Shown here piece by piece: positions 18,349 to 57,090 of a stretch of DNA of 64,000 nt; the stretch's first letter is position 1, and each line of letters starts with the position of its first letter. The stretch is from an uncultured bacterium (GTDB lineage Bacteria; Bacillota_I; Bacilli_A; Acholeplasmatales; Anaeroplasmataceae): the NCBI GenBank assembly GCA_949291115.1, contig CASETY010000006.1, forward strand, positions 1-64,000, given 5' to 3'. A program made the position numbers and the translations under genes. Below the pieces are notes generated by a model. That model was not told the DNA's origin. It searched no databases and worked only from the letters and a program-made list of their open reading frames with translations.

Positions 18349-18393
18349 ATTGACCTTCCAATCCAAGCAATAAATCTCTACAACAACAAAAAA

Positions 18394-18471
18394 TAAAATC
18401 TTATAGTCCTAAAATTAATGGTTTTAGGGTAGAGACTTGCTTACCATATTAAAGCTATTATATAAGATTTC
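18394..18471 (-). ncRNA. Guanine-type purine riboswitch aptamer
   Basis: On the minus strand the element has P1 (AAATCTTAT / ATAAGATTT), the J1/2 core TATAATA, and P2 with the conserved loop AATATGG. J2/3 is AAGTCTCTACC and P3 is CCTAAAA / TTTTAGG. J3/1 reads GACTATAAG. The C in that segment corresponds to position 74 of the xpt aptamer and indicates guanine/hypoxanthine rather than adenine. Binding would favour the terminator at 18274-18304 and switch off the pur operon. Downstream sequence at 18363-18381 (minus GTAGAGA..TTGCTTGG) is complementary to J2/3 and could act as an alternative pairing partner. Confidence 0.9.
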
Positions 18472-18594
18472 AACTAAATTATATCAAATTATAAAAAACT
18501 AGTAAACAATTAAAGCGCTATCATTAAATATAAAAATTAACACATAACTTAACAACCTATCTAATATAGTTCCATCAAACATTTTCATATAAAT

Positions 18595-43071: not shown

Positions 43072-44424
43072 TTAATAACGCATTAAATAAGTTTTAATTT
43101 CCCATTCTGTTACTTGTGTACGATAACGATCCCATTCAATTGATTTGGCTTGGATAAGTTTTTCAGTAATATGTTCACCTACTGCTTCTTGCATCAATTT
43201 ATCTTGTTTGAAAGCTTTAATGGCTTCATGTAAATTAGCAGGTAATGAATCAACACCTTTTTTCTTACGATCTTCATCGGTCATTTTAAATAAATTATCA
43301 TAAATTGGTTGAACTTTTTTACAATTACCTTTTACACCATCTAGGCCAGCTACTAAAATTGCTGACATAGCTAAATATGGATTAGCGGCAACGTCAACAC
43401 TTCTAACTTCTGTTCTTGTTTTTAAGCCACGGGCAGCTGGAATTCTTATCATTGTTGAACGGTTAGAATCACTCCATGATATATAACAAGGAGCTTCAAA
43501 TCCTGGCACAATTCTTTTATAAGAGTTGACAATTGGATTTGTTAATAGACAAAAACCTTTCGCATGATCTAAAATACCAGAAATCCAGTTTAAACATAAT
43601 TCAGAAAGACCATTCTTAGCATTTTCATCGTAAAAAGCATTCTTACCATCTTCTTTTACTAATGAACAGTTCGCATGCATACCAGAACCGTTAATACCAG
43701 CAATAGGTTTTGGCATAAATGTCGCATGTAAACCATGACGTCTAGCTACATTCTTAACCACAATCTTAAATGTTTGTACATGATCGCATGCTTCTAAAAC
43801 AGAATCAAAGCGGAAATTAATTTCATGTTGAGATTTACTAACTTCATGATGAGCAGCTTCTACTACAAACCCAATTCTTTGTAACTCAGCTACAATATCA
43901 CGTCTACAATCTTCTGCACAATCTATTGGTGATAAATCAAAATAACCACCATTGTCATTGAAATTTAAAGTTGGATTGCCCTTTTCATCTAATTTAAATA
44001 AGAAAAACTCTGGTTCTAAACCAACGTTAAATGACTTAAAACCCATTGCATTCATTTTCTTAACATTACGTTTTAACACACCTCTAGGATCCCCTTCAAA
44101 AGGAATGTGTTTACCATCTTTACCAGGACGATAGATATCACAAATAAAACGAGCTACTTTCCCATATGAGTTATTTTCCCAACTTAATACTAAGAAAGTA
44201 TCTAAATCTGGATGTAAAAACATATCAGCTTCATAAATACGTACAAAACCTTCAATTGAAGAACCATCAAACATAACGTTGTTATCTAAGGCATCTTCCA
44301 AACGCGTAATTGGAATTTCAACATTCTTTACAGTACCTAAAATGTCTGTAAATTGCATTCTAATGTAGTGAATATTTTCCTCCTTGCAGATTCTTCTAAT
44401 GTCTTCTTTTGTGTAGTGTTGCAT
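43072..44424 (-). CDS. glnA: Glutamine synthetase type I-alpha
   Basis: Makes glutamine, the nitrogen donor for PurF, PurL and GuaA in this window. The 450-residue enzyme shows [17 protein letters not shown] (including the Arg that mediates feedback inhibition in Bacillus GlnA), [36 protein letters not shown], and [13 protein letters not shown]. The length and absence of the adenylylation-type insertion fit the I-alpha class. It is a single gene with a consensus promoter and a 100-bp leader that carries candidate ANTAR hairpins and a terminator. No glnR lies next to it. Confidence 0.97.
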
Positions 44425-44452: not shown

Positions 44453-44517
44453 AAGGTCGCAAAAAAACTTGCGACCTTGCATTTCGAATTTTTTTATTAT
44501 TTTGAGCCCCATTGCTC
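44453..44517 (-). promoter_or_regulatory. glnA leader: candidate ANTAR dual hexaloop and terminator
   Basis: On the minus strand, hairpin 1 is TGAGC-AATGGG-GCTCA (44503-44518). Hairpin 2 is TGC-AAGGTC-GCA (44470-44481). Both hexaloops carry A at position 1 and G at position 4, the conserved bases of ANTAR target RNAs. Hairpin 2 overlaps the 5' arm of a strong terminator AAGGTCGCAA/TTGCGACCTT (44453-44478) followed by T-rich sequence. Binding of the two hairpins by an ANTAR protein would prevent the terminator. The 3-bp stem of hairpin 2 is short, which lowers confidence. Confidence 0.65.
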
Positions 44518-44524
44518 ATTTGTT

Positions 44525-44553
44525 ATAATACCAAAAAATAAAATTAGTGTCAA
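44525..44553 (-). promoter_or_regulatory. glnA promoter
   Basis: TTGACA (44548-44553), 17-bp spacer, TATTAT (44525-44530) on the minus strand. The transcript would begin just at ANTAR hairpin 1. The -35 lies at the 3' end of the Gx transporter gene. Confidence 0.85.
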
Positions 44554-45062
44554 TTACTATTTTTAGATAAAATCAATTTAAATCTCTTTCTTAATAATAT
44601 ACAAATAATTCCACTAAAAACACCAGTTGCAATTGATAATAAAGCTATTAATGGAAAATAATAGATTACTCCTTTAGTACTAACTAAAATTATTAAAATT
44701 GTAATTTGACCGATAGTGTGAAATACTGATCCTAACACCGAAACACCAATACTTGAAAATAAATTAAATCTTGAAAAGATAGTCATTATTAAAAAAGCTA
44801 ATATTCCTCCAGCTAAAGACATATACCAAGTTGGCGTTAAAAAAGTACCTAAGATAAAACCCGTTAAAAATATTCTTAATATTAAAACTATAAAAGCATC
44901 AACAATATTATCTTCATACAATAATAAGAGAATAACCACATTAGCTAAACCAAGCTTAACCCCAGGAACAGGAATAGGAATAAAACTTTCAACATAGCCA
45001 ACTACTATCGCTATCGCTAGCATAATAGAAAGAAGAACTAATTTTTTTACTTTGCTTTTCAT
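44550..45062 (-). CDS. Gx transporter family protein (heptaprenyl diphosphate synthase component I-like)
   Basis: A 170-residue membrane protein with about five helices. It carries the family signature IPIPVPGVKLGLANVVILLLLY (residues 28-49) and the later FLTPTWYMSLAGGI and GSVFHTIGQI stretches. The family (Pfam Hpre_diP_synt_I) is regularly found next to NusG_II and ApbE genes in Rnf and extracellular electron-transfer loci, where it may take up quinone precursors or flavin-related compounds. The role is not proven. It is the last gene of the Rnf operon, sharing one base with the NusG_II gene. Confidence 0.85.
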   Translation of the reverse strand: MKSKVKKLVLLSIMLAIAIVVGYVESFIPIPVPGVKLGLANVVILLLLYEDNIVDAFIVLILRIFLTGFILGTFLTPTWYMSLAGGILAFLIMTIFSRFNLFSSIGVSVLGSVFHTIGQITILIILVSTKGVIYYFPLIALLSIATGVFSGIICILLRKRFKLILSKNSN

Positions 45063-45472
45063 TATTCTAACACCGTCACTTCTTCATTATAAATTTGAAT
45101 AGTAACAAAATTAGGCAAACAAACAATTGGCCCATCTTTAACACTCGTAATTAGACCCATTTTCATACAAGTATGGTCATAACAGTTAGATTCTAAAACT
45201 CTAATTCCTTTTTCACTATAAACGATTATCATTGAATAATTTATTTTATCACTTATTATACATTTATCATTTTCTATTAATAAATATAAATATTCTTCAT
45301 CTTTATATTCTAAATAATTTAACTCAATTACTGTTTCTTCTTTATAAGTTATTAAAGCATAATTGTTTTCATCATCACTACTATGTTCATAAGTAAAAAG
45401 AAAATAAGTAAATATTCCTATTAAAACTATTAAAATAACAATTAAAATTAAATCTGTAATCTTAAACTTCAT
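45062..45472 (-). CDS. NusG domain II-containing membrane-anchored protein
   Basis: A 136-residue protein from the ATG at 45472 (MKFKITDLILIV); a longer frame to 45496 is open but has no ribosome-binding site. One membrane helix at the N-terminus is followed by an extracytoplasmic NusG_II-like domain with NCYDHTCMKMG and IVCLPNFVTIQI, the conserved Cys pattern of the family. It overlaps the end of apbE. Such proteins accompany ApbE and Gx transporter genes in Rnf loci; their exact job is unknown. Confidence 0.82.
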   Translation of the reverse strand: MKFKITDLILIVILIVLIGIFTYFLFTYEHSSDDENNYALITYKEETVIELNYLEYKDEEYLYLLIENDKCIISDKINYSMIIVYSEKGIRVLESNCYDHTCMKMGLITSVKDGPIVCLPNFVTIQIYNEEVTVLE

Positions 45473-46748
45473 AATTATTATAAATAACCTTTCCATCTTT
45501 ACTTAAGATAACAGATAAATCATTTTCTAAAACAAAGTCTTTTAAAATATCTATTGGCATAACAAATAAAGCTGTTGATAAGGCATCTAATTTACCACTA
45601 TCATCACCAATAACTGTTACACTATCTACATAATTATTATAGTTTTCATCATTTAAAGGATAGCCAGCAGGGACACCTGTAAACGGGGAAATTAAATGAT
45701 GAACAATACCTGCACCATCATCAAAATGTTGTTCAGAAGGTGAAGATGTACAAACATCTTTGTTCTTTACTTTAATCCGAGTTAAAACTAAACTATCAAC
45801 TAATTCAACCTTACCATTTTCTTTTTTATAAAGTTTCGCATCATTCATATTTAAAATAACATCGCCATCTTCATAGCCACTTGGTACCATTCCTTGATAT
45901 GAATAATCTAAATGAAAATTAGATTCATCTTCAATTTTTATCTTAGTTTGATAATCATCTATCTTTAATAAACCATCATTAATACTAATATTAGGCTCCT
46001 TAGGATAACCATATACATAGCTAATACCAACATTATAATAACTATTAGTTGGATCTTCTCCTAAAGCGATTGATGATGCACCAGCATTTAACAAATAATC
46101 ATTAATGCCAATACTCTTTAAATATTCTTTAACCATATTAGTGGCATAACCTTTAGCTATACCTCCTAAATCAATTAAGCTTTTTTCTAAAGAATTATTG
46201 ACACCGCCATTTAAAATAACTTTAGTACCTTCAATAGTTAAACTAGTATTATTCATTCTATTTAAATATTCATTAATTTCTCCTGGTGATGGTTTAGATG
46301 CACTCATACCATCTAAAGTTAAATAAGCTTTCCAAGCGTGATTTAATTCACCCATAAATAAATTAAAATAACCATGTGTATAACTATTCATTTCTAAAGC
46401 AAAATTTAATAAATTAATAAGTTCAGAAGTTGCATCTTCCAAAACCCTATTAGCATTTAAAACGGCTAATTCACTTGCATTTTCGTTAGTAGTATTAGTT
46501 ATAGGATCATAACCATCCGTAGCTAAACTATCATATGTTTGATAAATTTCTTTTACCTTTTTCCAAACATTAGAGGCATAACTTTCACCCTTATCAGTAT
46601 AAAACTTTAAACTGATAACCGTATTCATTGTATTATAATTACCAACATAAGCTTTTTGATTAGAACTTGGGTTATTACCGCTAGTATCATACATACAAGA
46701 AACCAAAAAAATTGGTAATAATAATATAAATATTAATAACTTCTTTAT
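45462..46748 (-). CDS. apbE: ApbE flavin transferase lipoprotein
   Basis: Attaches FMN covalently to Thr in SGAT-type sites of RnfG and RnfD outside the membrane, so it matches the giant RnfG here. Motifs are YDSLATDGYD...NASELAVLNAN, YFNLFMGELNHAWKAYL, IDLGGIAKGYATNMVKEYL (FAD/Mg site), LLNAGASSIALG and HHLISPFTGVPAG; Asp/Thr at the C-terminal VTVIGDDSGKLDALSTALFVM. The first ordinary start codon is a TTG at 46706, which would remove the signal peptide. In frame upstream lies a full lipoprotein signal (IKKLLIFILLLPIFLVSC) starting at ATC/ATA 46751-46746, placed 5-8 bp after AGGAGG. A non-AUG start is therefore likely. Confidence 0.88.
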   Translation of the reverse strand: MKKLLIFILLLPIFLVSCMYDTSGNNPSSNQKAYVGNYNTMNTVISLKFYTDKGESYASNVWKKVKEIYQTYDSLATDGYDPITNTTNENASELAVLNANRVLEDATSELINLLNFALEMNSYTHGYFNLFMGELNHAWKAYLTLDGMSASKPSPGEINEYLNRMNNTSLTIEGTKVILNGGVNNSLEKSLIDLGGIAKGYATNMVKEYLKSIGINDYLLNAGASSIALGEDPTNSYYNVGISYVYGYPKEPNISINDGLLKIDDYQTKIKIEDESNFHLDYSYQGMVPSGYEDGDVILNMNDAKLYKKENGKVELVDSLVLTRIKVKNKDVCTSSPSEQHFDDGAGIVHHLISPFTGVPAGYPLNDENYNNYVDSVTVIGDDSGKLDALSTALFVMPIDILKDFVLENDLSVILSKDGKVIYNNYEV

Positions 46749-46772
46749 GATTTACACCTCCTAATAACATAT

Positions 46773-46797
46773 TAAGCCATGCATAAGCACGGCTTAA
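46773..46797. repeat. Hairpin between rnfB and apbE
   Basis: TTAAGCC / GGCTTAA with a 12-base loop, without a T run. It lies just before the apbE ribosome-binding site and may be an mRNA processing or stability element. Confidence 0.5.
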
Positions 46798-46801
46798 TTG
46801 T

Positions 46802-47131
46802 TTAATTTAATTTTGTTTGATTAACTGAGCCATCTGGATTAGGATGTTCATCTAAATATTGTCTTAATTTAGCAGGAACACCAGCTTTTAAACCTGGCTT
46901 ACATAAAGATAAATTTTCTGCTTTACCAGCTAAAATTGCATCCGCATAACCAGCACAACCAGGATAACCACAAGCCCCGCAATTAGCGTTAGGTAATATC
47001 GCCACGATTTCTTCTTTTCGATTATCTTCTACAACATGTAAGTATTTAGAGGCAATCCCTAAGCCAATACCAAAGAGTAAACCAAGGCCAGCTAAGATTA
47101 AGACAGCCCAAAGTAATGTTAATGGATCCAT
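46802..47131 (-). CDS. rnfB: Short RnfB: membrane anchor and one Fe-S domain
   Basis: A 109-residue protein. The N-terminal helix (PLTLLWAVLILAGLGLLFGIGLGIASKYLHV) and the 4Fe-4S motif NANCGACGYPGCAGYADAI...LCKPG (about 49-82) are characteristic of the RnfB N-terminus. Normal RnfB proteins of about 190-330 residues continue with two or more ferredoxin-type clusters; here the protein ends after the first domain in an ordinary TAA, and no continuation is visible in any frame downstream. The subunit that would take electrons from ferredoxin is therefore missing its usual part. It follows the 67-residue Cys protein and precedes apbE. Confidence 0.88.
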   Translation of the reverse strand: MDPLTLLWAVLILAGLGLLFGIGLGIASKYLHVVEDNRKEEIVAILPNANCGACGYPGCAGYADAILAGKAENLSLCKPGLKAGVPAKLRQYLDEHPNPDGSVNQTKLN

Positions 47132-47334
47132 TATTCTTTCTCCTTTTCTAAAGCTTCTTTTTCTTTCTTAACTATTTTTAAAGCACAATCAGTAACTTTA
47201 CAAGTTTGACAATTACCTTCCTCAATTAAATCTCTACAACCATCAGGTTTAGGAGTTTTGTTATTTAAAACATAAGAAACGAAAAAGATAGCTACTAATA
47301 AAACAATAACTATAATCGCTATTGCAACTTTCAT
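47131..47334 (-). CDS. Small membrane-anchored Cys-rich protein
   Basis: A 67-residue protein with one N-terminal helix (residues 2-24) and a soluble tail containing four Cys in GCRDLIEEGNCQTCKVTDCALK, enough for an iron-sulfur or metal site, then a lysine/glutamate-rich end. I do not know the family. Its ATG overlaps the rnfA TGA (ATGA), and its stop overlaps the rnfB start by one base, so it is firmly part of the Rnf operon. It could supply a cluster missing from the short RnfB. Confidence 0.75.
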   Translation of the reverse strand: MKVAIAIIVIVLLVAIFFVSYVLNNKTPKPDGCRDLIEEGNCQTCKVTDCALKIVKKEKEALEKEKE

Positions 47335-47924
47335 TGACTAATCATTCCTTGAATGCCCATAAATGCAATAGCCATTGAAGCAGCCACTACTAAGGCAATT
47401 GGAATACCTTTAAAAGCCTTAGGAATATCCATTGCATCTAATTTAATTCTAATTGTTGAGAAAACAAAAATTACTAAAGCAAACCCAATAGATGTACCTA
47501 GAGCATTACCCATTGAAGTTAAGAAATCATAAGCATTATTAGTATTTTCTTGAGCTACACCTAATACAGCACAATTTGTTGTAATAAGTGGTAAATATAC
47601 ACCTAAAGCATTATATAAAGCTGGACTAAACTTCTTAATAAACATTTCAACTAATTGTACTAAAGAAGCAATTACTAAAATGTATACTAAAGTATCCATA
47701 AAGGCAATATTAGCTGGCACTAAAATATAATTATAAATTGGCCAAGTAACTGCCGCTGACAAAACAATAACAAATATTACGGCAACCCCCATACCTAAAG
47801 CAGAGGTTGGTTTTTTAGAAACACCTAAGAAAGGACAAATACCATAAAATCTAGATAAGGTTACGTTATTAATAAGCATTGCATTAACAATACCTAATAT
47901 AAAAGCCAAAAACATCTTAAGCAC
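47331..47924 (-). CDS. rnfA: Rnf complex subunit A
   Basis: A 197-residue integral membrane subunit with six helices. NNVTLSRFYGICPFLGVSKKPTSALGMGVAV near the N-terminus and PLITTNCAVLGVA near residue 115 carry the conserved Cys residues (one per half) that hold a membrane-embedded 2Fe-2S cluster between RnfA and RnfE. It overlaps rnfE by 8 bp. Confidence 0.95.
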   Translation of the reverse strand: MLKMFLAFILGIVNAMLINNVTLSRFYGICPFLGVSKKPTSALGMGVAVIFVIVLSAAVTWPIYNYILVPANIAFMDTLVYILVIASLVQLVEMFIKKFSPALYNALGVYLPLITTNCAVLGVAQENTNNAYDFLTSMGNALGTSIGFALVIFVFSTIRIKLDAMDIPKAFKGIPIALVVAASMAIAFMGIQGMISQ

Positions 47925-48636
47925 CTGCCTTTTCTTGTTGTAGTTTTTCTAATTTAGCCTTTTTTAAAGCTTCAATACGTTCTTTTTCTTTAGCTACTAA
48001 AATAGCTTGTTTATGATTCTTAATGTACTGAATAAAAGCTAAGATACAAGCTAAAGTTAAGAAACCACCTGGAGCTTGCGTAAACATAGAAATTTTATAA
48101 GTAGCAAGTGGTGTCCAAGAAACTTCCGGAATGAAAGTGAACACTTTACCAAAAGTGAAACCACCAGTTCCAATAAATTCACGGAAAATAGCCATAATTA
48201 ATAAAGCCATACCGAAGCCAACTGACATCCCTAAAGCATCAACTAAAGATGAAAGTGGACCATTTTTAGAAGCAAAAGCTTCCGCCCTACCTAAAACAAT
48301 ACAGTTTACAACAATTAAAGAAATGAATAGGCCAAGAGTGTTATATAACTCTGGCATAAAGGCCTGACAAAGCATTCTTACAATCGTTACAAAAGCTGCG
48401 ATAACTACGATATAACAAGGAATCTTTACTTGACTAGGAATAATATTTCTTAATAAAGAAATTATCACATTAGAACAAACAAGAACTAAAGCAAATAAGA
48501 TAGCCATCCCAATTGCCCCTTCAATTGAAGTTGTTGTTGCTAAAGTAGGACAACAACCAAGTAAAGAAACAAATACTGGGTTTTCAACAATTATACCTTT
48601 TAAGAAATTCTTCTTTTGACTCATTTTCTCTTCCAT
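47917..48636 (-). CDS. rnfE: Rnf complex subunit E
   Basis: A 239-residue homologue of RnfA with six helices. It has NPVFVSLLGCCPTLATTTSIEGAIGMA and ISLIVVNCIVLGRAEAFA, giving the conserved cluster Cys residues. The C-terminal KEKERIEALKKAKLEKLQQEKAGA is a charged cytoplasmic tail. An apparent frame starts with MEEKMSQKKNFLKGI; the second Met is also possible. It shares one base with the end of rnfG. Confidence 0.95.
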   Translation of the reverse strand: MEEKMSQKKNFLKGIIVENPVFVSLLGCCPTLATTTSIEGAIGMAILFALVLVCSNVIISLLRNIIPSQVKIPCYIVVIAAFVTIVRMLCQAFMPELYNTLGLFISLIVVNCIVLGRAEAFASKNGPLSSLVDALGMSVGFGMALLIMAIFREFIGTGGFTFGKVFTFIPEVSWTPLATYKISMFTQAPGGFLTLACILAFIQYIKNHKQAILVAKEKERIEALKKAKLEKLQQEKAGA

Positions 48637-51600
48637 TAGTTGTTACCTCCTTTAACACTGTTATAAGCTTCAAAAGCCTTTGCAAATAAACTTTTAATTA
48701 AATCAGAACCAAGCGTAGCCCCGCTAACAGCATCAACACCAGCAACTTCTGCTTCTGCTTTATCTGTAAATTTATCTAAATAATCTTCTAACCTTTGGTT
48801 TCTACCACCAGTTTGATCTAGATTGATATAATTTGCACCAACTATCTTACCATTAGTATCAATACCAACACCAATAGTAATATTACCATAGGTATTATCA
48901 CCACTTACGGCAAAATAATAACCCAATAAAGAATTATTTACATTATTAGCTGTTCCCATAACTTTATAGGCATATGCTATACCATCAATAGTTAAAACTT
49001 CTGAACGAGTCGCAACCATATAACTATAAATTAATTTAGCACTATTTTCATATAAACTATAATTATTAACGCCTGCTTCTTGCATAGCTAATAAAATACC
49101 AAGTCTAATTACTTCAACAGTAAATGATGAATGAGCATCTGGATCATTAGTTGGATTATAATTAATCTTATTAATATCATCAACTGTTAAGCCTGATTTA
49201 AAGACATCAGGATTTTCTTTTGTAAAATCATCAATATTAGAATGATTATTTTCAATATCTAAAACAGCCACTAATTTATTATTTGTATCTAGACTTACTA
49301 ACATAATATTATAGCCATAGGCATTGCTTAAAGAAACAACATAACTATATCCTAATAAGTTTTTATTTTTATCACAAACACTATAAGCTTCTAAAATAGA
49401 ATCTTCATTCTTTACTGTTAATAAAGTAGATGTTTTAGAATCAAAGGCATTAAAACTCTTTAATACAAATTCATCATAACTGCCTAAATCGCCATGATTT
49501 TTAACCTCTTCAAATAATTTAATAGCGTTATTCTTAGCTGTTTCATTACCAGATAAAGCATTTAAACCTTCTAAACTTAAACCAACAGTTATAGAATCAT
49601 AGAAAGCTTGTTCATCTTCACTTAAGATAGCTACTGCTTTATAACCCACATAATTAAAGTTTTCATCAAAAGCCATCATTACATTATTTCTAACTAGTAC
49701 ATAACCTAATAAAATACCAACTTTAAAATTTTTAACACCTACAACTCTTAAACCATATGTAAAGCTTCCATCTTCTATACTAAGACTTCTACTACGAGTC
49801 ATTACTACAAATGGGAATAATTCTTTAACATAATTTTCATATAAGATATCAGTTGAAATTTCACCAGTAGCTTCTTTTAAGGCAATCTTAACTGCTAATT
49901 TAGTTAATTCTACTGAATAAGAAGAATCACCATCTAAAGAATTATACTTAATTTCATCAACTTGACTATAAGTCATGTTTTCTTTAAATAATGGTTTAAC
50001 ATTATCTAAAGCTGCATGATTATTTTCAACATCATAAATGTTAATTAATCTATTATTTTTACTTACATGAACTAAAATGTAATTATGAGTGTAAACATTC
50101 TTTACATCAATAATATAAGCTCTACTATCATCAGCTAAATTTTTAATACCAGCTAATGTATTTTCATATTTAAAATCTTTTAATACTTCAACATTAGTTA
50201 AATCTAAATTATCAATAGCATTTAAATAAATTTGGCTATTATTATAAAGATTAATTGTTCCTAAAGTTTTATTAGCTTTTTCATTTAAAGCTAATCTTAA
50301 ACCATATTTAACAAGTTGACTAGCATAACTTGCTCCTTCTAAAAGTAAGGCATTCTTAATTTCATTTTCATTAGAACCAGCTAAAGAATTTAAATAAGTA
50401 TTAACTCTACTTCTTAAAGTATCCTTAAATGAACCATTTACATTAATAACTGAACTCTCTTTTGTTTGATAATCATGAATAATACCACCAACATAATTAC
50501 CATCCATATCAACACCAATTACTAATGACATATAAATATCATCATTTTCAACATTTAAGAAATATACATAACCTAATTTAACACCATCTTCACCACTAGT
50601 TCCAACAATCTCATAACCTTTATAAATAGCACTATTCTTAAAATCACCAGTTAATTTAGATGAACGAGTCATAACTACATAAGGGAATAATGTTTTAATA
50701 TAAGTTTCATCTAATACACTTTCACTTAATGAATTATTTTTATTAACATCTAAAGCAATTAAAATGCCAAGTCTAATATTTTCAATTGTAAATGAAGAAT
50801 GAGCTTCTGGATCATTAGTTGGATTATAATTAATCTTATTAATATCTTCTAAAGTCATACCAGGTTTAAAGACATTAGGATTTTCACTTGTAAAGTCATC
50901 AACATTAGAATGATTATTTTCAACATCTAAAACTTGTTTAAATGTACCATCATTATTAACACCAACGCACATCACATTATAACCATAAGCATTTTCAACT
51001 CTAACAATATATGCTTTACCTAAAACACTGTTACCTTTTTTAACTTCAACAGCTTGTAAAACTTCACTTACAGTTATATTTTTTAATACTTCATAAGTAA
51101 TATCTTCACCAAAAATAGTTAAATAATACTCATCATAAGAAACTACAGCTTCTAAAGCTAATTTAACTAATGACTTAAATTGAATTGAACCTGGACTATC
51201 AGGAGTCGCATTCGCTACACTATCAACATCAGAAGCAGTCATACCAACACTAAAGTTATTTTCATAGCCATCTAATAAGCTACCATAACCACCAGTTTGA
51301 TTATTAGCTAACATAATAACTTTTTGTAATTTAGCTGTTGGACTAACACCTACCATTAATGTTAAAGTACCATCAAATTTATTAGGAGTACTTGTTAAGA
51401 CAAAACCATAACCTAATAAATTACCATCTTTATCATATAATTCTTTAGCTTCATCAAATTGTTCATCTAAAGCTGAAATATCATATTCTTTACTCTTCGT
51501 TAAATCAACACCTGTAAATAATGATAGATATTCTTCATCATAACCAGCTTTTGGTCTTTCACCAGTAACTTGTTCAAAAGCAGATGCAATTAAATCTTTT

Positions 51601-52895
51601 GTCGTGTTCGCTGCGAAAGTTGCACCACTTATAGCTTCAACACCTAGCATTTCACTACCATTCATACCAGGAGTTACATTATAAATAAATTCACCTAAAG
51701 ATTCATCTTTGCCAGCAGTTTGACCATTTTCTAAAACAAAGATACCAGCTAATTTAGCTGATGATGAATCAGTGCCCGTTAAACCAACATAAAGTTTAAT
51801 TGCCCCGTATTTATTAGAGCCACTAACTTCCACTACTTTACCTAAAGAATTGCCATCTTTTAATACATCAAAATATTTATTAACGTCTTCAACACTTGCT
51901 TTTAATTCAGTAGTATTTGTATAATCACCAAACATAATATTTAAAGCTAATGTTTCGTCAAAGCTTGACTTAGCTTCATTAATTGCTACTAAAATAGCAT
52001 ATTTAGCTGAATCAGAACCAAATGTAGCTCCACTAACAGCATCAACGCCTTCTACATCAGCAGCTGTCATACCATTAGTAAAACTTGGTAAATAATTTGT
52101 AATTGTTTCATCTCTTCCACCTGTTTGGCTAATATCAACAAGATTTGCAACTTTAACACTATAATCACTATTTAAACCAACACCAACTTCTACATAACCA
52201 TATGTATTATTAACTCTAACATCATAATAATAACCAAGTAAAGTATCATTACTATCTTTTACTGTATAACCAGCAGCAATTTGGTTAGCGTAGATTAAAT
52301 TAGTATCAATAATTGATTTTTCAAAATCAACACTTTCACCAAAGATATTAACAATATCTTTTTGAACTTTTGTTAAAATACCAGCTTCTGAAAAAGCCGC
52401 CTCTACTAAAGTCTTAATTAAATTAGAACCAAATGTAGCTCCACTTACAATCGGTAAGTCACTTACATCATCAGCAGTCATACCAGCTGTAAAATCATCT
52501 TCTGCCCACGCTGTTAATTCAGCAGCTGACTTAGTTTGCCCATTTTCTGTACAAGATATACCAATTAACTTACCATCCATATCTAAGCCAACAATTAAAG
52601 TAATGACCCCGTAAGAATTTCTGCCACTAACTTTAATACCAATACCAATTTCTACACCATTAGCGTCTTTTACAGTCATTTTTTCTTTAACATAACTAGA
52701 TTTAAATCCATCTTCAACAATTAAAGAGTTATTCGCATCCATTGTTGGGAAAAATTCCATATAAGCTTCCATTGTTAATTGTTTTTGATATTCTTCAATT
52801 TTAGGAGCTGTAAATAGATTAACACCAGCTACTAATAAAGCACAAACTAAACAAATAGAAGTTAAAACCGCCGCTATTTTTACATACTTTTTCAT
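48636..52895 (-). CDS. rnfG: Giant multi-FMN RnfG-like protein
   Basis: RnfG proteins are usually 180-230 residues with one FMN_bind domain. This one has 1419 residues: a membrane anchor (about 5-28) and about ten FMN_bind-like modules, ending near residues 170, 310, 440, 580, 715, 870, 1008, 1130, 1270 and 1410. Intact SGAT flavinylation motifs occur at T154, T291, T426 and T1394. Module 4 has ANAT (564) and module 6 EGAS (853-856). Modules 5, 7 and 9 have replaced the site with NYNPTNDPEAHSS or similar, and module 8 is degenerate. Modules 5 and 9 are nearly identical, showing recent duplication. The four or more bound flavins would form an electron path outside the membrane. Confidence 0.92.
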   Translation of the reverse strand: MKKYVKIAAVLTSICLVCALLVAGVNLFTAPKIEEYQKQLTMEAYMEFFPTMDANNSLIVEDGFKSSYVKEKMTVKDANGVEIGIGIKVSGRNSYGVITLIVGLDMDGKLIGISCTENGQTKSAAELTAWAEDDFTAGMTADDVSDLPIVSGATFGSNLIKTLVEAAFSEAGILTKVQKDIVNIFGESVDFEKSIIDTNLIYANQIAAGYTVKDSNDTLLGYYYDVRVNNTYGYVEVGVGLNSDYSVKVANLVDISQTGGRDETITNYLPSFTNGMTAADVEGVDAVSGATFGSDSAKYAILVAINEAKSSFDETLALNIMFGDYTNTTELKASVEDVNKYFDVLKDGNSLGKVVEVSGSNKYGAIKLYVGLTGTDSSSAKLAGIFVLENGQTAGKDESLGEFIYNVTPGMNGSEMLGVEAISGATFAANTTKDLIASAFEQVTGERPKAGYDEEYLSLFTGVDLTKSKEYDISALDEQFDEAKELYDKDGNLLGYGFVLTSTPNKFDGTLTLMVGVSPTAKLQKVIMLANNQTGGYGSLLDGYENNFSVGMTASDVDSVANATPDSPGSIQFKSLVKLALEAVVSYDEYYLTIFGEDITYEVLKNITVSEVLQAVEVKKGNSVLGKAYIVRVENAYGYNVMCVGVNNDGTFKQVLDVENNHSNVDDFTSENPNVFKPGMTLEDINKINYNPTNDPEAHSSFTIENIRLGILIALDVNKNNSLSESVLDETYIKTLFPYVVMTRSSKLTGDFKNSAIYKGYEIVGTSGEDGVKLGYVYFLNVENDDIYMSLVIGVDMDGNYVGGIIHDYQTKESSVINVNGSFKDTLRSRVNTYLNSLAGSNENEIKNALLLEGASYASQLVKYGLRLALNEKANKTLGTINLYNNSQIYLNAIDNLDLTNVEVLKDFKYENTLAGIKNLADDSRAYIIDVKNVYTHNYILVHVSKNNRLINIYDVENNHAALDNVKPLFKENMTYSQVDEIKYNSLDGDSSYSVELTKLAVKIALKEATGEISTDILYENYVKELFPFVVMTRSRSLSIEDGSFTYGLRVVGVKNFKVGILLGYVLVRNNVMMAFDENFNYVGYKAVAILSEDEQAFYDSITVGLSLEGLNALSGNETAKNNAIKLFEEVKNHGDLGSYDEFVLKSFNAFDSKTSTLLTVKNEDSILEAYSVCDKNKNLLGYSYVVSLSNAYGYNIMLVSLDTNNKLVAVLDIENNHSNIDDFTKENPDVFKSGLTVDDINKINYNPTNDPDAHSSFTVEVIRLGILLAMQEAGVNNYSLYENSAKLIYSYMVATRSEVLTIDGIAYAYKVMGTANNVNNSLLGYYFAVSGDNTYGNITIGVGIDTNGKIVGANYINLDQTGGRNQRLEDYLDKFTDKAEAEVAGVDAVSGATLGSDLIKSLFAKAFEAYNSVKGGNN

Positions 52896-54097
52896 GATCT
52901 TAGACCTCCTAAAACACTAATAAAATTAGTTGTTTGAGGAACCTCAATACGACCATTTACAGTAAAACAAATAATTAAAGTAACACAAGTAATAACTACT
53001 ACTAATCCTAAAGCTTGAATCCAAGTATAAGAATTTTTCTTGCCACGCATAAAGTAATCTAGTGCACAAGTAATAATATTAGCTAATAAAATCGCAAATG
53101 CCACCCCTTCAGGATAACCGCCAATATAACGAATTAAAGCTACCATAATACCAGCAAAAGCCCCGTAACAAACTCTACCAAACTTAGTAACTGGTGATGT
53201 TACTGGATCTGTTATCATAAAAGTAGCCCCAAATAATAACCCACCAGCTAACAATTCATAAGCCATAAAATTACCAACATGTGTTGGTGTTTTCATATTT
53301 AAAACAATACCAACAAAGAAAGTAATAATCATAAAACTTGCTATCATACTTAATGTTGATCTTAAATCAATAGCTTTTCTTACTACCAAATATAAAAGCG
53401 AAACTAAAATTAAAACTGAACAAACTTCACCCATAGCTCCTGGTACATTACCTATAAATAAATCCATTAAAGAATAATTTTGTAAAGATGAAGCAAAATT
53501 ACCTAAATTAGTACCAATTTGTGCTAAAGGAGTTCCGCTAGTAATAACTAAAGTGCCATCAGTACCTTCGCTTACTAAACTAGGAAAAATTTGACTAGTT
53601 TGGTTAATTAAAGCACTGTCAAGTTGAGAAGTAAAACAAAGCTTAACAAATATAAATCCTAAAGCAGCCGGATTAAAAATATTATTACCATAAGGACCAA
53701 AAACCAACTTGCCAAATAAAATACCAACTATGCTACCAACAATAACCACATAAACAGGAGTGGCAGCTGGTAATAATAATGAAAATATTAAAGCTGATAT
53801 AATTGGACAAGTTAAATTATTAATTGTATAGCCACCAAGAACTCTCTTAAACCCTTCTTTTGAAAAAAGTTCTTTTCTTTTCATACCTTGTGGCCATTTA
53901 ATAAGCATTACCGCAATAGCTTCAACTATAAGCATAGTAAGAACTGAGGCTAATATTACATAAATGCCATTCCAACCATTTTGAATTGTCGCAAATAAAA
54001 CGATTGGAATTAAAGCAATAATAACATCAAGCATCATACGCTTAACAGAAACATTCTTACGAATATAAGGGCTTGTTTCTCTAACAAATTTCATCAA
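52892..54097 (-). CDS. rnfD: Rnf complex subunit D
   Basis: A 401-residue integral membrane subunit, homologous to NqrB. It starts with FVRETSPYIRKNVSVKRMMLDVIIALIP, shows the TINNLTCPIISALIF and GNNIFNPAALGF helices, and has TSGTPLAQ with T189 before Pro190, the usual place for covalently bound FMN. Later MITDPVTSPVTKFGR is the conserved loop. At 401 residues it is longer than short RnfD proteins, with an extracytoplasmic loop around the flavin site. It overlaps rnfG by 4 bp. Confidence 0.94.
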   Translation of the reverse strand: MMKFVRETSPYIRKNVSVKRMMLDVIIALIPIVLFATIQNGWNGIYVILASVLTMLIVEAIAVMLIKWPQGMKRKELFSKEGFKRVLGGYTINNLTCPIISALIFSLLLPAATPVYVVIVGSIVGILFGKLVFGPYGNNIFNPAALGFIFVKLCFTSQLDSALINQTSQIFPSLVSEGTDGTLVITSGTPLAQIGTNLGNFASSLQNYSLMDLFIGNVPGAMGEVCSVLILVSLLYLVVRKAIDLRSTLSMIASFMIITFFVGIVLNMKTPTHVGNFMAYELLAGGLLFGATFMITDPVTSPVTKFGRVCYGAFAGIMVALIRYIGGYPEGVAFAILLANIITCALDYFMRGKKNSYTWIQALGLVVVITCVTLIICFTVNGRIEVPQTTNFISVLGGLRS

Positions 54098-54106
54098 AAA
54101 ATCCCC

Positions 54107-55402
54107 CTATTTAACCATTTTTTTAGCTTTACGCATATAATCAGTTAGATGAATTTTAGAAGTACAAGTATAAGTACACATACCACATTCAACACATTCA
54201 TTAACTCTTAACTTTTTAAGACCATCAACATCTTTAGTCTTATAAGCATTCATAATTAAAACTGGTTGTAAGCCTGCTGGACAAGAATAAACACAAGATG
54301 CACAATGAATGCAAGGTTCTTCTTTATAGTCTTTTTTATTGATAACAATTAAAGAAGTTGAACTCTTTGTACACATCGCATCATCTTTTAAAAGATTAGC
54401 CCCCATCATTGGACCACCCATAATTAATATCTTGTCAGAATCATCAGTATAACCACCACATTTTTCAATTAAGTCTTGAACCGATGTACCAATTCTAATT
54501 CTTAAATTTGATGGGTATTTAATACCATTACCAGTTACTGTAAAGTTTCTTTCAATTACTGGTGTATTAAATTTAATAGCTCTATAAATACCAACAACTG
54601 TCGAAACATTAAAATTAACAACCCCGTAATCAACTGGTAATTTACCATGTTCTATTTTGATACCTAAGGCTTTTTTAATCATTTCAACTTCCCAACCTTG
54701 TGGGTAATAATTACCTAAACGTTTAATTTCAATTGGTAAGTCACTAAATCTTTTTAAAGTTTGGGATAATACATTATATAAATCATCATATTTCTTCTTA
54801 ATACAAATATAAGCTTTTTTAGCTTTAAAAGCTTGTAAGCAATACTTAATACCCTTCATAATTAAATCAGGATATTCAAGCATAATACGATGATCAGTAG
54901 TTAAAGATGGTTCACATTCAATACCATTAATAGTTATATAATCAATTGGTTTATTAGTTTGAAACTTAACATAAGTAGGGAAAGAACTACCACCTAAACC
55001 AACTACTGAATTTTCCTTAACTATTCTTGTAAAGTCATCTTTAGTGAATTTTTCAATTTCTTCATCAGAACGTTCCTTTATAGAATCTTCTCTTTCATCT
55101 AAAAAGTTATTTTCAATTTCAATAGCGTCAACTAATTTACCAGTACGACTAAACTTTTTAGCAAATCCAACCACTTTACCACTAACAGTCGAATGAATGT
55201 TTTGTTCCAAAGTGTTAGTATATCTCTTACCTAAAATAGTGCCTATTTTAACTGAATCGCCTGGTTTTACGTAAATCTCCGCTTTATCAAAACGTTGGTT
55301 AGTAAAACCTAAATATATTCTTTTAGGTTTAACATACCTAATTGTAGGAAGTTCTGTTGTAATGTCTAAGGCCTCACCAATAGTGCGTGTTTTTGCGATC
55401 AC
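54107..55402 (-). CDS. rnfC: Rnf complex subunit C
   Basis: A 431-residue peripheral subunit that oxidises or reduces NAD(H). An N-terminal barrel-sandwich segment (KPGDSVKIGTILGKR...STVSGKVVG) precedes the FMN/NAD domain GLGGSSFPTYVKF (about 135) and NGIECEPSLTTDHRIM, an SLBB domain (GTSVQDLIEKCGG) and two 4Fe-4S motifs, CIHCASCVYSCP and CVECGMCTYTC, near 365 and 405. Length and motifs are complete. Its start overlaps the stop region of the ANTAR gene. Confidence 0.95.
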   Translation of the reverse strand: MIAKTRTIGEALDITTELPTIRYVKPKRIYLGFTNQRFDKAEIYVKPGDSVKIGTILGKRYTNTLEQNIHSTVSGKVVGFAKKFSRTGKLVDAIEIENNFLDEREDSIKERSDEEIEKFTKDDFTRIVKENSVVGLGGSSFPTYVKFQTNKPIDYITINGIECEPSLTTDHRIMLEYPDLIMKGIKYCLQAFKAKKAYICIKKKYDDLYNVLSQTLKRFSDLPIEIKRLGNYYPQGWEVEMIKKALGIKIEHGKLPVDYGVVNFNVSTVVGIYRAIKFNTPVIERNFTVTGNGIKYPSNLRIRIGTSVQDLIEKCGGYTDDSDKILIMGGPMMGANLLKDDAMCTKSSTSLIVINKKDYKEEPCIHCASCVYSCPAGLQPVLIMNAYKTKDVDGLKKLRVNECVECGMCTYTCTSKIHLTDYMRKAKKMVK

Positions 55403-55956
55403 GTTAACACCCTTTCTATGATCATTTTTGCAATTTCTGCTTTTGTTTTTCTAAGTTCCATAGCTTTTTTTATGATATATTTATGAGCTTGTTCTTCTTG
55501 ATAGTTCTTCTCTTTTATCAATATGAGCTTAGCTTCTTGTATAAGTGTCATACTTTCTGCTTTATCTTTTAATCTTCTTATTTCTTCTAAAGATTTTTCA
55601 TGCTTTTTCCTAACATTTAACATATATTTTACTATGTTATTTAAAGCTTTAATGCCATCAACACTTAAAAGAAAAAAACTAGGATTATCTAACACATTAT
55701 AAAGAAGTCCATATTCTAAACTATCACTAATATAAATAACTATATTATGATTCATATTGACTAAAACATCTAAAACTTGACTTCTGCTTTTAACAAAATA
55801 AGAGCTAATAACAATTATTTCTTCTTTTATACTTAGAAGTTTATAATAAATTTCTTCTAAACTCCCTTGATAAATTACATATTCATCTTTTTTAAATAGA
55901 CCATACAATTGATATTCAAGCATCTTATTGTTTAAAAAACAGCTAAGCTTAAACAA
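55399..55956 (-). CDS. ANTAR-domain RNA-binding regulator
   Basis: A 185-residue protein starting at a TTG with GAGGTG 7 bp upstream. Residues 1-115 look like a degenerate receiver-type domain: the acidic phosphorylation site is not evident, and it has IIVISSYFVKSR where the Asp would be. A coiled segment follows (KKHEKSLEEIRRLKDKAE), then the ANTAR three-helix domain (about 128-182: SMTLIQEAKLILIKEKNYQEEQAHKYIIKKAMELRKTKAEIA). ANTAR proteins bind paired hexaloop RNAs to stop termination. It heads the Rnf operon. A matching leader is seen at glnA, 11 kb away. Confidence 0.85.
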   Translation of the reverse strand: MFKLSCFLNNKMLEYQLYGLFKKDEYVIYQGSLEEIYYKLLSIKEEIIVISSYFVKSRSQVLDVLVNMNHNIVIYISDSLEYGLLYNVLDNPSFFLLSVDGIKALNNIVKYMLNVRKKHEKSLEEIRRLKDKAESMTLIQEAKLILIKEKNYQEEQAHKYIIKKAMELRKTKAEIAKMIIERVLT

Positions 55957-56104: not shown

Positions 56105-57090
56105 TTATAAAATTTCCCAGTAGCCCTTCTTATTAGAACCAACTCTTTTAATAAGGCCATTTTCTTCTAAAGATGACAATTCACGATAAATAGAAGATTT
56201 CAACTTAGTTAAAAGTGAAGCTAATTCTTTTCTATTAAGTGTGGATTTTCTTTTAATAATGTAAGAACATCTTTTGGCTTATCTATAATATTAGTTTTAA
56301 ATGGTATGCTGACTCTTATAAAACTTGGTGAAAACCTAAATATTTCTTGCGGATAAAACTTTAAAACCCGTCTAATACCAGTTCCTAATCTTTCAGCTAG
56401 TCCTAAATCTCTAAAAACTCTAATTAAGATTGTTTTACTGGCAGGGAATAGCTAGCTAAAAAATCTTCTTTAGTAAAGCCTTGTGGTAATCCCCCAAATG
56501 AAGATATTTCAAAACGATTAAAAAACTCTTCAAATGTAGGAAGGCCATTTGTTCTATAATCGTTATGGACAATTGCATTTACCACAATTTCTATTAAGGC
56601 AATCTCATTAAATTTTTGGATTTCTACTCTTCCATTAGCTATGATTTTTGTATATGTTATATTGTGAGAATTAAAAAGTTCAATTAATTCAATTGTCGTT
56701 TTTATAATAGATTGGTTAGTGAATGTTTTTTGTTCACACAATTCAAAAACATCATCTCCTTTACATCTAGCCTATTGAAAAATTAAATTATTTTGATCCG
56801 AAAATAAAAATGCAGCATAATTAAACTTATTATCATCAATATAAAATTCTAATTGTTTTAATAAATTATCACCAATTTCATATCATTTATCTATGTATTT
56901 TCTAAATAAATAATCAAAAGATAGTAATTGAATAGGTAAGATAGTGTTAATTAAAGTTCGCTTTTCTCTTTTTTGAAATAAATCAATAATCATTGTATCA
57001 GACATTTTTTCAGCTTCTTTGTCAATATTAGAAGATGAAACAATAATTGAAGCAATAAAAAAGTTTGTAAAAGCTTTTGGCTAATACAAA
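56105..57090 (-). pseudogene. Decayed AlbA_2/ATPase-type gene
   Basis: Fragments of a protein related to the gene at 4682 are spread over this stretch in different frames. They include a segment with an in-frame TGA (56883-56885) and TAG (56772-56774), then EIALIEIVVNAIVHNDYR (56424-56741, the GHKL-like ATPase part), and at the left end a winged-helix tail reading SSIYRELSSLEENGLIKRV...GYWEIL. Several frameshifts and stops mean no full product can be made. The whole 56018-57099 interval is explained by this remnant. Confidence 0.75.

Follow-up and report, generated by a model that had tools for sequence, protein, structure and literature searches.

A dual-hexaloop leader of glnA in an uncultured Anaeroplasmataceae bacterium and its probable control by an ANTAR protein encoded at the head of the rnf operon

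The analyzed stretch of DNA (64,000 nt, hereafter the window) belongs to an uncultured bacterium of the family Anaeroplasmataceae. On its minus strand it carries an ANTAR regulator gene, an rnf cluster, and the glutamine synthetase gene glnA, the last of which is preceded by a structured leader. The features of the locus are as follows.

55399..55956, minus strand: ANTAR regulator with a pseudo-receiver and an ANTAR domain, 185 aa, TTG start (PF03861; AlphaFold model)
44550..55402, minus strand: rnfC, rnfD, rnfG-like, rnfE, rnfA, rnfB-like, apbE, NusG-II, and hepT-like genes, lying on one strand between the ANTAR gene and glnA
44525..44553, minus strand: promoter of the glnA leader, sigma-70-type (sequence)
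44503..44518, minus strand: hairpin 1, P1 (fold; covariance models R1 and R2; stem covariation)
44482..44502, minus strand: A/U-rich linker, 21 nt (sequence)
44470..44481, minus strand: hairpin 2, P2, the predicted antiterminator (fold; stem comparison; covariance models R1 and R2)
44453..44478, minus strand: intrinsic terminator stem-loop, 11 bp, loop TTTT (fold)
43072..44424, minus strand: glnA, type I glutamine synthetase, the proposed controlled gene (PF00120/PF03951; TIGR00653)

The leader promoter consists of a -35 box TTGACA (44553-44548), which shares bases with the stop codon of the hepT-like gene lying upstream, a 17-nt spacer, and a -10 box TATTAT (44530-44525), all on the minus strand. 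Since the hepT-like gene ends at this promoter, transcripts of the rnf cluster could read on into the glnA leader. Hairpin 1, TGAGC[AATGGG]GCTCA, is formed by a 5-bp stem and the hexaloop AATGGG, and hairpin 2, TGC[AAGGTC]GCA, by a 3-bp stem and the hexaloop AAGGTC; both loops have A in the first position and G in the fourth (A1 and G4). The terminator upstream of glnA (AAGGTCGCAAG-TTTT-3' arm, 44478-44453) shares the bases of its 5' arm with hairpin 2 and is followed by TTATTTT (44452-44446), i.e., UUAUUUU in RNA. The predicted folding energy of the leader is -29.4 kcal/mol, compared with an average of -14.2 for dinucleotide shuffles (z -6.4), and the isolated terminator stretch has a z of -4.4. 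The glnA product matches TIGR00653 with a score of 532 bits over the cut-off.

Both strands of the window were scanned for a pattern of two A1/G4 hexaloops and an overlapping terminator, and the glnA leader was the sole site on either strand. The same pattern was observed in none of 20,000 shuffles of the leader and in none of 30 shuffles of the whole window. The Rfam scan of the leader yielded no family at the gathering score, the weak matches being to unrelated families. The leader shares the defining features of the dual-hexaloop class (Ramesh et al., 2012), namely two A1/G4 hexaloop hairpins (with stems of 5 and 3 bp in the window), a variable linker, an overlap between hairpin 2 and the terminator, and an ANTAR protein that is encoded in the same genome and co-inherited with the leader. 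An RNA element of another kind, a purine riboswitch aptamer (RF00167, 74.2 bits), is located at 18384-18485 on the minus strand of the window.

The ANTAR gene at 55399-55956 scores 40.9 bits with PF03861 (cut-off 27.3), is the single ANTAR gene in the genome, and stands first in the rnf operon, overlapping rnfC by 4 nt. Thus, the earlier note on this DNA, which was made from the sequence alone, had correctly placed an ANTAR gene at the head of the Rnf operon at 55399, and had described the promoter, the two hairpins with their A1/G4 loops, and the terminator overlap accurately to the base, as the sequence and the fold confirm. The AlphaFold model of the protein (pLDDT 91.7) comprises a receiver and an ANTAR domain, and its best PDB match is the EutV-RNA complex 6ww6 (Z 12.8, 177 aligned residues), followed by unbound EutV and AmiR; the fold also matches Rv1626. 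A streptococcal redox sensor (5u8m) among the structural matches was discarded, as it reflects the common receiver fold and provides no evidence of redox sensing.

The position of the phosphoacceptor aspartate (Asp54 of EutV) is occupied by Ser51 in the window protein and by S, T, N, H, or Q in all aligned rnf-type rows (15/15), the aspartate being present only in two rows of the alignment that represent glnA-adjacent genes of the genus g3. The window protein is thus not classed as a phospho-activated response regulator of the EutV type, which is recognized by its receiver aspartate, and because this residue is missing, the signal is probably other than phosphorylation. The Met plug of EutV and one Arg are conserved, and the other RNA-contact residues vary (with the offset in residue numbering being inferred). 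The ANTAR protein showed no recognizable conserved sensory residue or cofactor site. The same rnf-associated ANTAR is present in the genome of Anaeroplasma bactoclasticum.

Among 50 genomes of the family that have glnA, 22 contain the leader motif within 300 nt upstream of this gene, in the form GC[AANGGN]GC, 14-24 nt, GC[AANGTC]GC or a close variant, and a competing terminator-like stem folds in the other leaders of the family as well. A promoter of the form TTGAC(A/T)-N16/17-TAnnnT ends 4-7 nt ahead of hairpin 1 in all distinct family leaders (21/21). Since the promoter is kept at this fixed distance, the transcript should start at hairpin 1 or directly beside it. The linker varies between 14 and 24 nt in the family and between 15 and 40 nt in the compared leaders of other families.

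The base pairs of hairpin 1 change on both sides among the family leaders. In hairpin 2, the inner two pairs are invariant and the outer pair is formed in 11 of 21 leaders, so this stem has no covariation support within the family. The stems and loops were then compared across families, with the linker removed, and the middle pair was found to switch between G-C and A-U in both hairpins; with the other families added, it is G-C in 23 and A-U in 12 leaders for hairpin 1, and G-C in 22 and A-U in 12 for hairpin 2. The switch may represent one single event. G4 is kept in all compared leaders (37/37) and A1 in all of them except for the hairpin-2 loop of a single genome (G005), the set having been gathered in part by patterns that demand A1 and G4. 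Two observations had been named in the earlier note as arguing against an ANTAR target, a lack of covariation in the stem of hairpin 2 and a loss of A1/G4 in relatives. The outcome is mixed and on the whole favorable: the former holds within the family but not across families, where the middle pair switches, and the latter is limited to the one loop in this partly preselected set.

The covariance model R1, built from 21 family leaders, recognizes the window leader in its own genome with 53 bits (E 1e-9, a rough value), the next match having 18.3 bits. The model R2, made without the window's genus (g1), still recovers it with 47.7 bits (E 7e-8, likewise rough) and finds no other good match in the genome, the next one scoring 17.1 bits, and in each of the eight genomes of the genus (8/8) the glnA leader is the only match of R2 below E 0.1. 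Positives held out from R1 comprise the leaders of glnN-glnA operons in two genomes (G022, 51.4 bits; G002, 44.3 bits) and a leader in the genus g3 (G029:C49, 31.5 bits). The model R3, derived from the ANTAR-glnA leaders of other families, which have an A-U closing pair and longer linkers, missed the window leader and gave no clear match among the family leaders; hence, the element is not recognizable across families by R3.

The g3 leader (L193, 1382-1425) is a second leader of the ANTAR type, located ahead of an operon for an Orn/Lys/Arg decarboxylase, a PAD_porph-family deiminase, and a carbon-nitrogen hydrolase. The deiminase is probably an agmatine deiminase, and the operon, which could release ammonia, fits a role in nitrogen recovery.

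The distribution of the motif was analyzed in 42 family genomes with an RnfC match. All genomes that have both Rnf and the rnf-type ANTAR possess the motif ahead of glutamine synthetase (20/20, in one case, G022, upstream of a glnN-glnA operon), whereas none of the Rnf-bearing genomes without this ANTAR do (0/22; Fisher p 2e-12). Thus, the leader is predicted by the ANTAR gene and not by Rnf alone. On the GlnA tree, the presence of the ANTAR gene changes at least 10 times, and the motif follows it with two exceptions, G002 and G012, in which the motif is present and an rnf-type ANTAR was not detected; both are bins of about 78% completeness that contain no rnfC or rnf locus. The co-conservation of leader and ANTAR gene, which the earlier note suggested as a check, is apparent in the counts and along the tree, with these two mismatches.

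The ANTAR genes of the family are of two kinds, those located directly upstream of rnfC and those located beside a second glutamine synthetase or elsewhere, and the two kinds form separate clades (100/100 support). Those beside the second glutamine synthetase are referred to here as NitR-like, a name given purely by position. The window ANTAR falls into the rnf/gln clade, outside the NitR-like one (100/100). Of the 10 genomes with only a NitR-like ANTAR, nine have no glnA motif, and the tenth is the incomplete bin G012. Two ANTARs of the genus g3 that are encoded directly upstream of glnA are nested inside the rnf-type clade (100/100), and the searched genomes of this genus yielded no RnfC match. 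The glutamine synthetase beside some NitR-like ANTARs is preceded by a different hexaloop hairpin, GAAC[AARGGC]GTTC (L094, L120, and L121), which is a likely target of the NitR-like clade.

The contiguous order ANTAR-rnf-apbE-NusG-II-hepT-leader-glnA on one strand was observed in the window genome and in one other genome (G035, L096), and in 20 genomes rnfC is immediately preceded by the ANTAR gene. Given this overlap or adjacency, co-expression of the ANTAR gene with rnf is probable. Elsewhere in the class, in other families, the nearest ANTARs are encoded directly upstream of glnA, mostly with a dual hexaloop and a terminator in between; several of these loci have the order glyA-ANTAR-glnA. 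In the Anaeroplasmataceae genera g2 and g5, glyA is located upstream of the ANTAR gene, and rnf follows it. This gene order points to an insertion of the rnf cluster between glnA and an ANTAR gene that originally adjoined it, which is the most likely reason for the location of the ANTAR gene in the rnf operon.

One family (f24) has an ANTAR-glnA interval with a single hexaloop and no evident terminator. In five loci of one family (L209, L210, L211, L216, and L220) the interval contains a single A1/G4 hexaloop followed by AAGAAAGGTTRT, with no evident second hexaloop or terminator, and is possibly a translational version of the leader.

The rnf cluster of the window has several peculiarities. 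The product of the rnfG-like gene (48636-52895, minus strand) has 1419 aa and combines FMN_bind domains with long internal repeats, and family genomes of other genera match just its first 170-190 residues at the equivalent place. The rnfB-like gene (46802-47131, minus strand) encodes 109 aa with an Fe-S domain and without the ferredoxin domains expected of RnfB, and its counterparts in relatives are alike. Upstream of the ANTAR gene, an apparent broken reading frame (56140-56500, minus strand) is perhaps the remnant of a gene that encoded a putative DNA-binding protein.

A further hexaloop was found at the ANTAR gene itself in the sister genera. All rnf-type ANTAR genomes of g2 and g5 (12/12; loci L110, L103, L104, L111, L112, L105, L113, L107, L108, L114, L116, and L102) contain, within a few bases of the ANTAR start on its 5' side, a hairpin CAC[AAWGGR]GTG whose loop and 3' arm make up the gene's ribosome-binding site. 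The same hairpin is present in six loci of another family (L212-L215, L218, and L225). Its fourth pair is A-U in some loci and U-A in others, and such hexaloops occur at only 0.014 per kb of the DNA examined. The hairpin is absent from the genomes of the window's genus (8/8), and no hexaloop motif was found upstream of the rnf operon in the window genome or its genus. Its placement suggests that ANTAR proteins may regulate their own translation in the sister genera.

Taken together, the leader of glnA is very probably an anti-termination element operated by the ANTAR protein of the rnf operon head (55399-55956). Transcription would start at or next to hairpin 1, and by default the RNA would fold into the 11-bp terminator, so that transcription would stop before glnA. 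The active ANTAR protein would bind the A1/G4 hexaloops of hairpins 1 and 2; once stabilized, hairpin 2 would sequester the terminator's 5' arm, allowing RNA polymerase to continue into glnA. The anatomy and conservation of the leader, the covariation of its stems, and its co-inheritance with the rnf-type ANTAR clade are computational observations, whereas for binding, the direction of control (activation), and the signal the proposal follows the analogy with EutV and NitR. ANTAR control of glnA appears well supported on comparative grounds, because the leader is recovered by the genus-excluded model, co-occurs with the ANTAR over at least 10 changes, and has orthologous ANTARs adjoining glnA elsewhere. 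The central proposal of the earlier note, that this leader is a target of the rnf-head ANTAR, thus gains strong support from the comparison of genomes. Several points run against this interpretation: the linker is 21 nt long, compared with 5-12 nt in the eut leaders of E. faecalis, the stem of hairpin 2 often has only 2 bp in relatives, R3 misses the leader, not all EutV contact residues are kept, and two bins have the motif without the ANTAR.

The terminator lies just after the hepT-like gene in the same orientation, with the promoter as its 5' neighbor, as would be expected if it simply ended the rnf-apbE-hepT transcript upstream of a glnA promoter and the hairpins were incidental, with no role for ANTAR. 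This explanation is extremely improbable given the lack of chance matches in shuffled sequences, the recovery of the leader by the genus-excluded model, the co-occurrence with the ANTAR (20/20 vs. 0/22), and the covariation of the hairpin stems. An ANTAR-type leader might also work in another way: a different RNA-binding factor could operate it, or the ANTAR could repress, or act on translation instead of on termination. Binding and direction are indeed deduced by analogy for this leader, actinobacterial ANTARs repress translation at targets overlapping ribosome-binding sites (PMC8164766), and the sister genera hold the ribosome-binding site of the ANTAR gene in a hexaloop hairpin. Nonetheless, hairpin 2 overlaps the 5' arm of the terminator as in published leaders and lies upstream of the ribosome-binding site of glnA, and no other ANTAR could act in a genome encoding a single one; we consider a different mode of action improbable.

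A role of the ANTAR protein as a functional part of the Rnf operon, sensing redox or energy state and placing glnA under redox control, deserves somewhat more weight, yet it is rather doubtful. It agrees with the 4-nt overlap with rnfC and the position upstream of rnfC in 20 genomes, which make co-expression likely, and with the hexaloop at the first ribosome-binding site of the ANTAR-rnf operon in 12 of these 20 genomes. However, ANTARs of the same clade adjoin glnA in the Rnf-less genus g3 and in other families, and therefore the ANTAR-glnA partnership is independent of Rnf; moreover, 22 family genomes have Rnf but not the ANTAR, and the protein has no identified conserved sensory residue or cofactor site. 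The link between nitrogen and redox control that the earlier note drew from the ANTAR position accordingly remains a hypothesis: there is no hexaloop upstream of rnf here, rnf operons without ANTAR exist, the gene order suggests insertion, and the receiver has lost its phosphoacceptor aspartate. Anti-termination of glnA by the ANTAR protein remains the preferred explanation. As a more tentative extension, the ANTAR may constitute a two-point circuit, in which a non-phosphorylated pseudo-receiver protein would control glnA via dual-hexaloop anti-termination and, in the sister genera, also its own gene and the attached rnf genes via the ribosome-binding site hexaloop, the insertion of rnf having brought energy conservation and nitrogen assimilation under a common control; this is possible, with the balance of probability against it.

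The proposed pairing assigns a specific RNA target to an uncharacterized ANTAR protein of the wall-less Anaeroplasmataceae, including a cultured genus (Anaeroplasma bactoclasticum). The natural gains and losses of the ANTAR-leader pair make this assignment of a regulator to its target unusually clean, and the locus offers a case of a regulator that was kept tied to its target while an energy operon came to adjoin the regulator. The leaders further suggest that hexaloop elements tolerate longer linkers than those of the eut model.

Among the closest known counterparts is the EutV/EutW system of Enterococcus faecalis, for which the anti-termination mechanism has been demonstrated (PMC3369931, PMC8934654). 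The eut leaders likewise have two A1/G4 hexaloop hairpins, the second of which overlaps a terminator, and are served by a receiver-ANTAR protein. In contrast, the leaders described here have linkers of 14-24 instead of 5-12 nt and precede glnA instead of eut genes, the receiver has no phosphoacceptor aspartate, and the ANTAR gene is located in the rnf operon. In E. faecalis, an eutP linker of 14 nt, or one extended by 20 nt in vitro, impaired function (PMC3369931, PMC8934654); the linker of 5-12 nt is a trait of the E. faecalis eut locus and lies outside the definition of the dual-hexaloop class. In actinobacteria, translation is repressed by ANTARs from targets overlapping the ribosome-binding site (PMC8164766), which resembles the hexaloop at the ribosome-binding site of the ANTAR gene in the sister genera; the actinobacterial RNAs are dual stem-loops on other genes, whereas the sister genera have a single hairpin at the ANTAR gene.

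With respect to the target, the proposed system resembles NitR of Clostridium saccharobutylicum, an ANTAR regulator described as acting through anti-termination on the genes for glutamine synthetase and GOGAT when nitrogen is limiting (Stutz et al., 2007, as cited in PMC6316151). The survey of Ramesh et al. (2012; PMC3369931), in the parts considered here, reports nitrogen genes, glutamine and glutamate synthases among them, that are preceded by ANTAR leaders, i.e., the same class of element and the same kind of target gene as in the window; in those parts no mention was found of the Anaeroplasmataceae or of a location in an Rnf operon. In our literature search, no paper was found that places an ANTAR gene in an Rnf operon, which is weak evidence of absence. 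Control of glutamine synthetase genes through ANTAR anti-termination has thus been published before, and the window leader joins this class. What seems to be new is the pairing of the rnf-head ANTAR with glnA, together with the history of the gene order.
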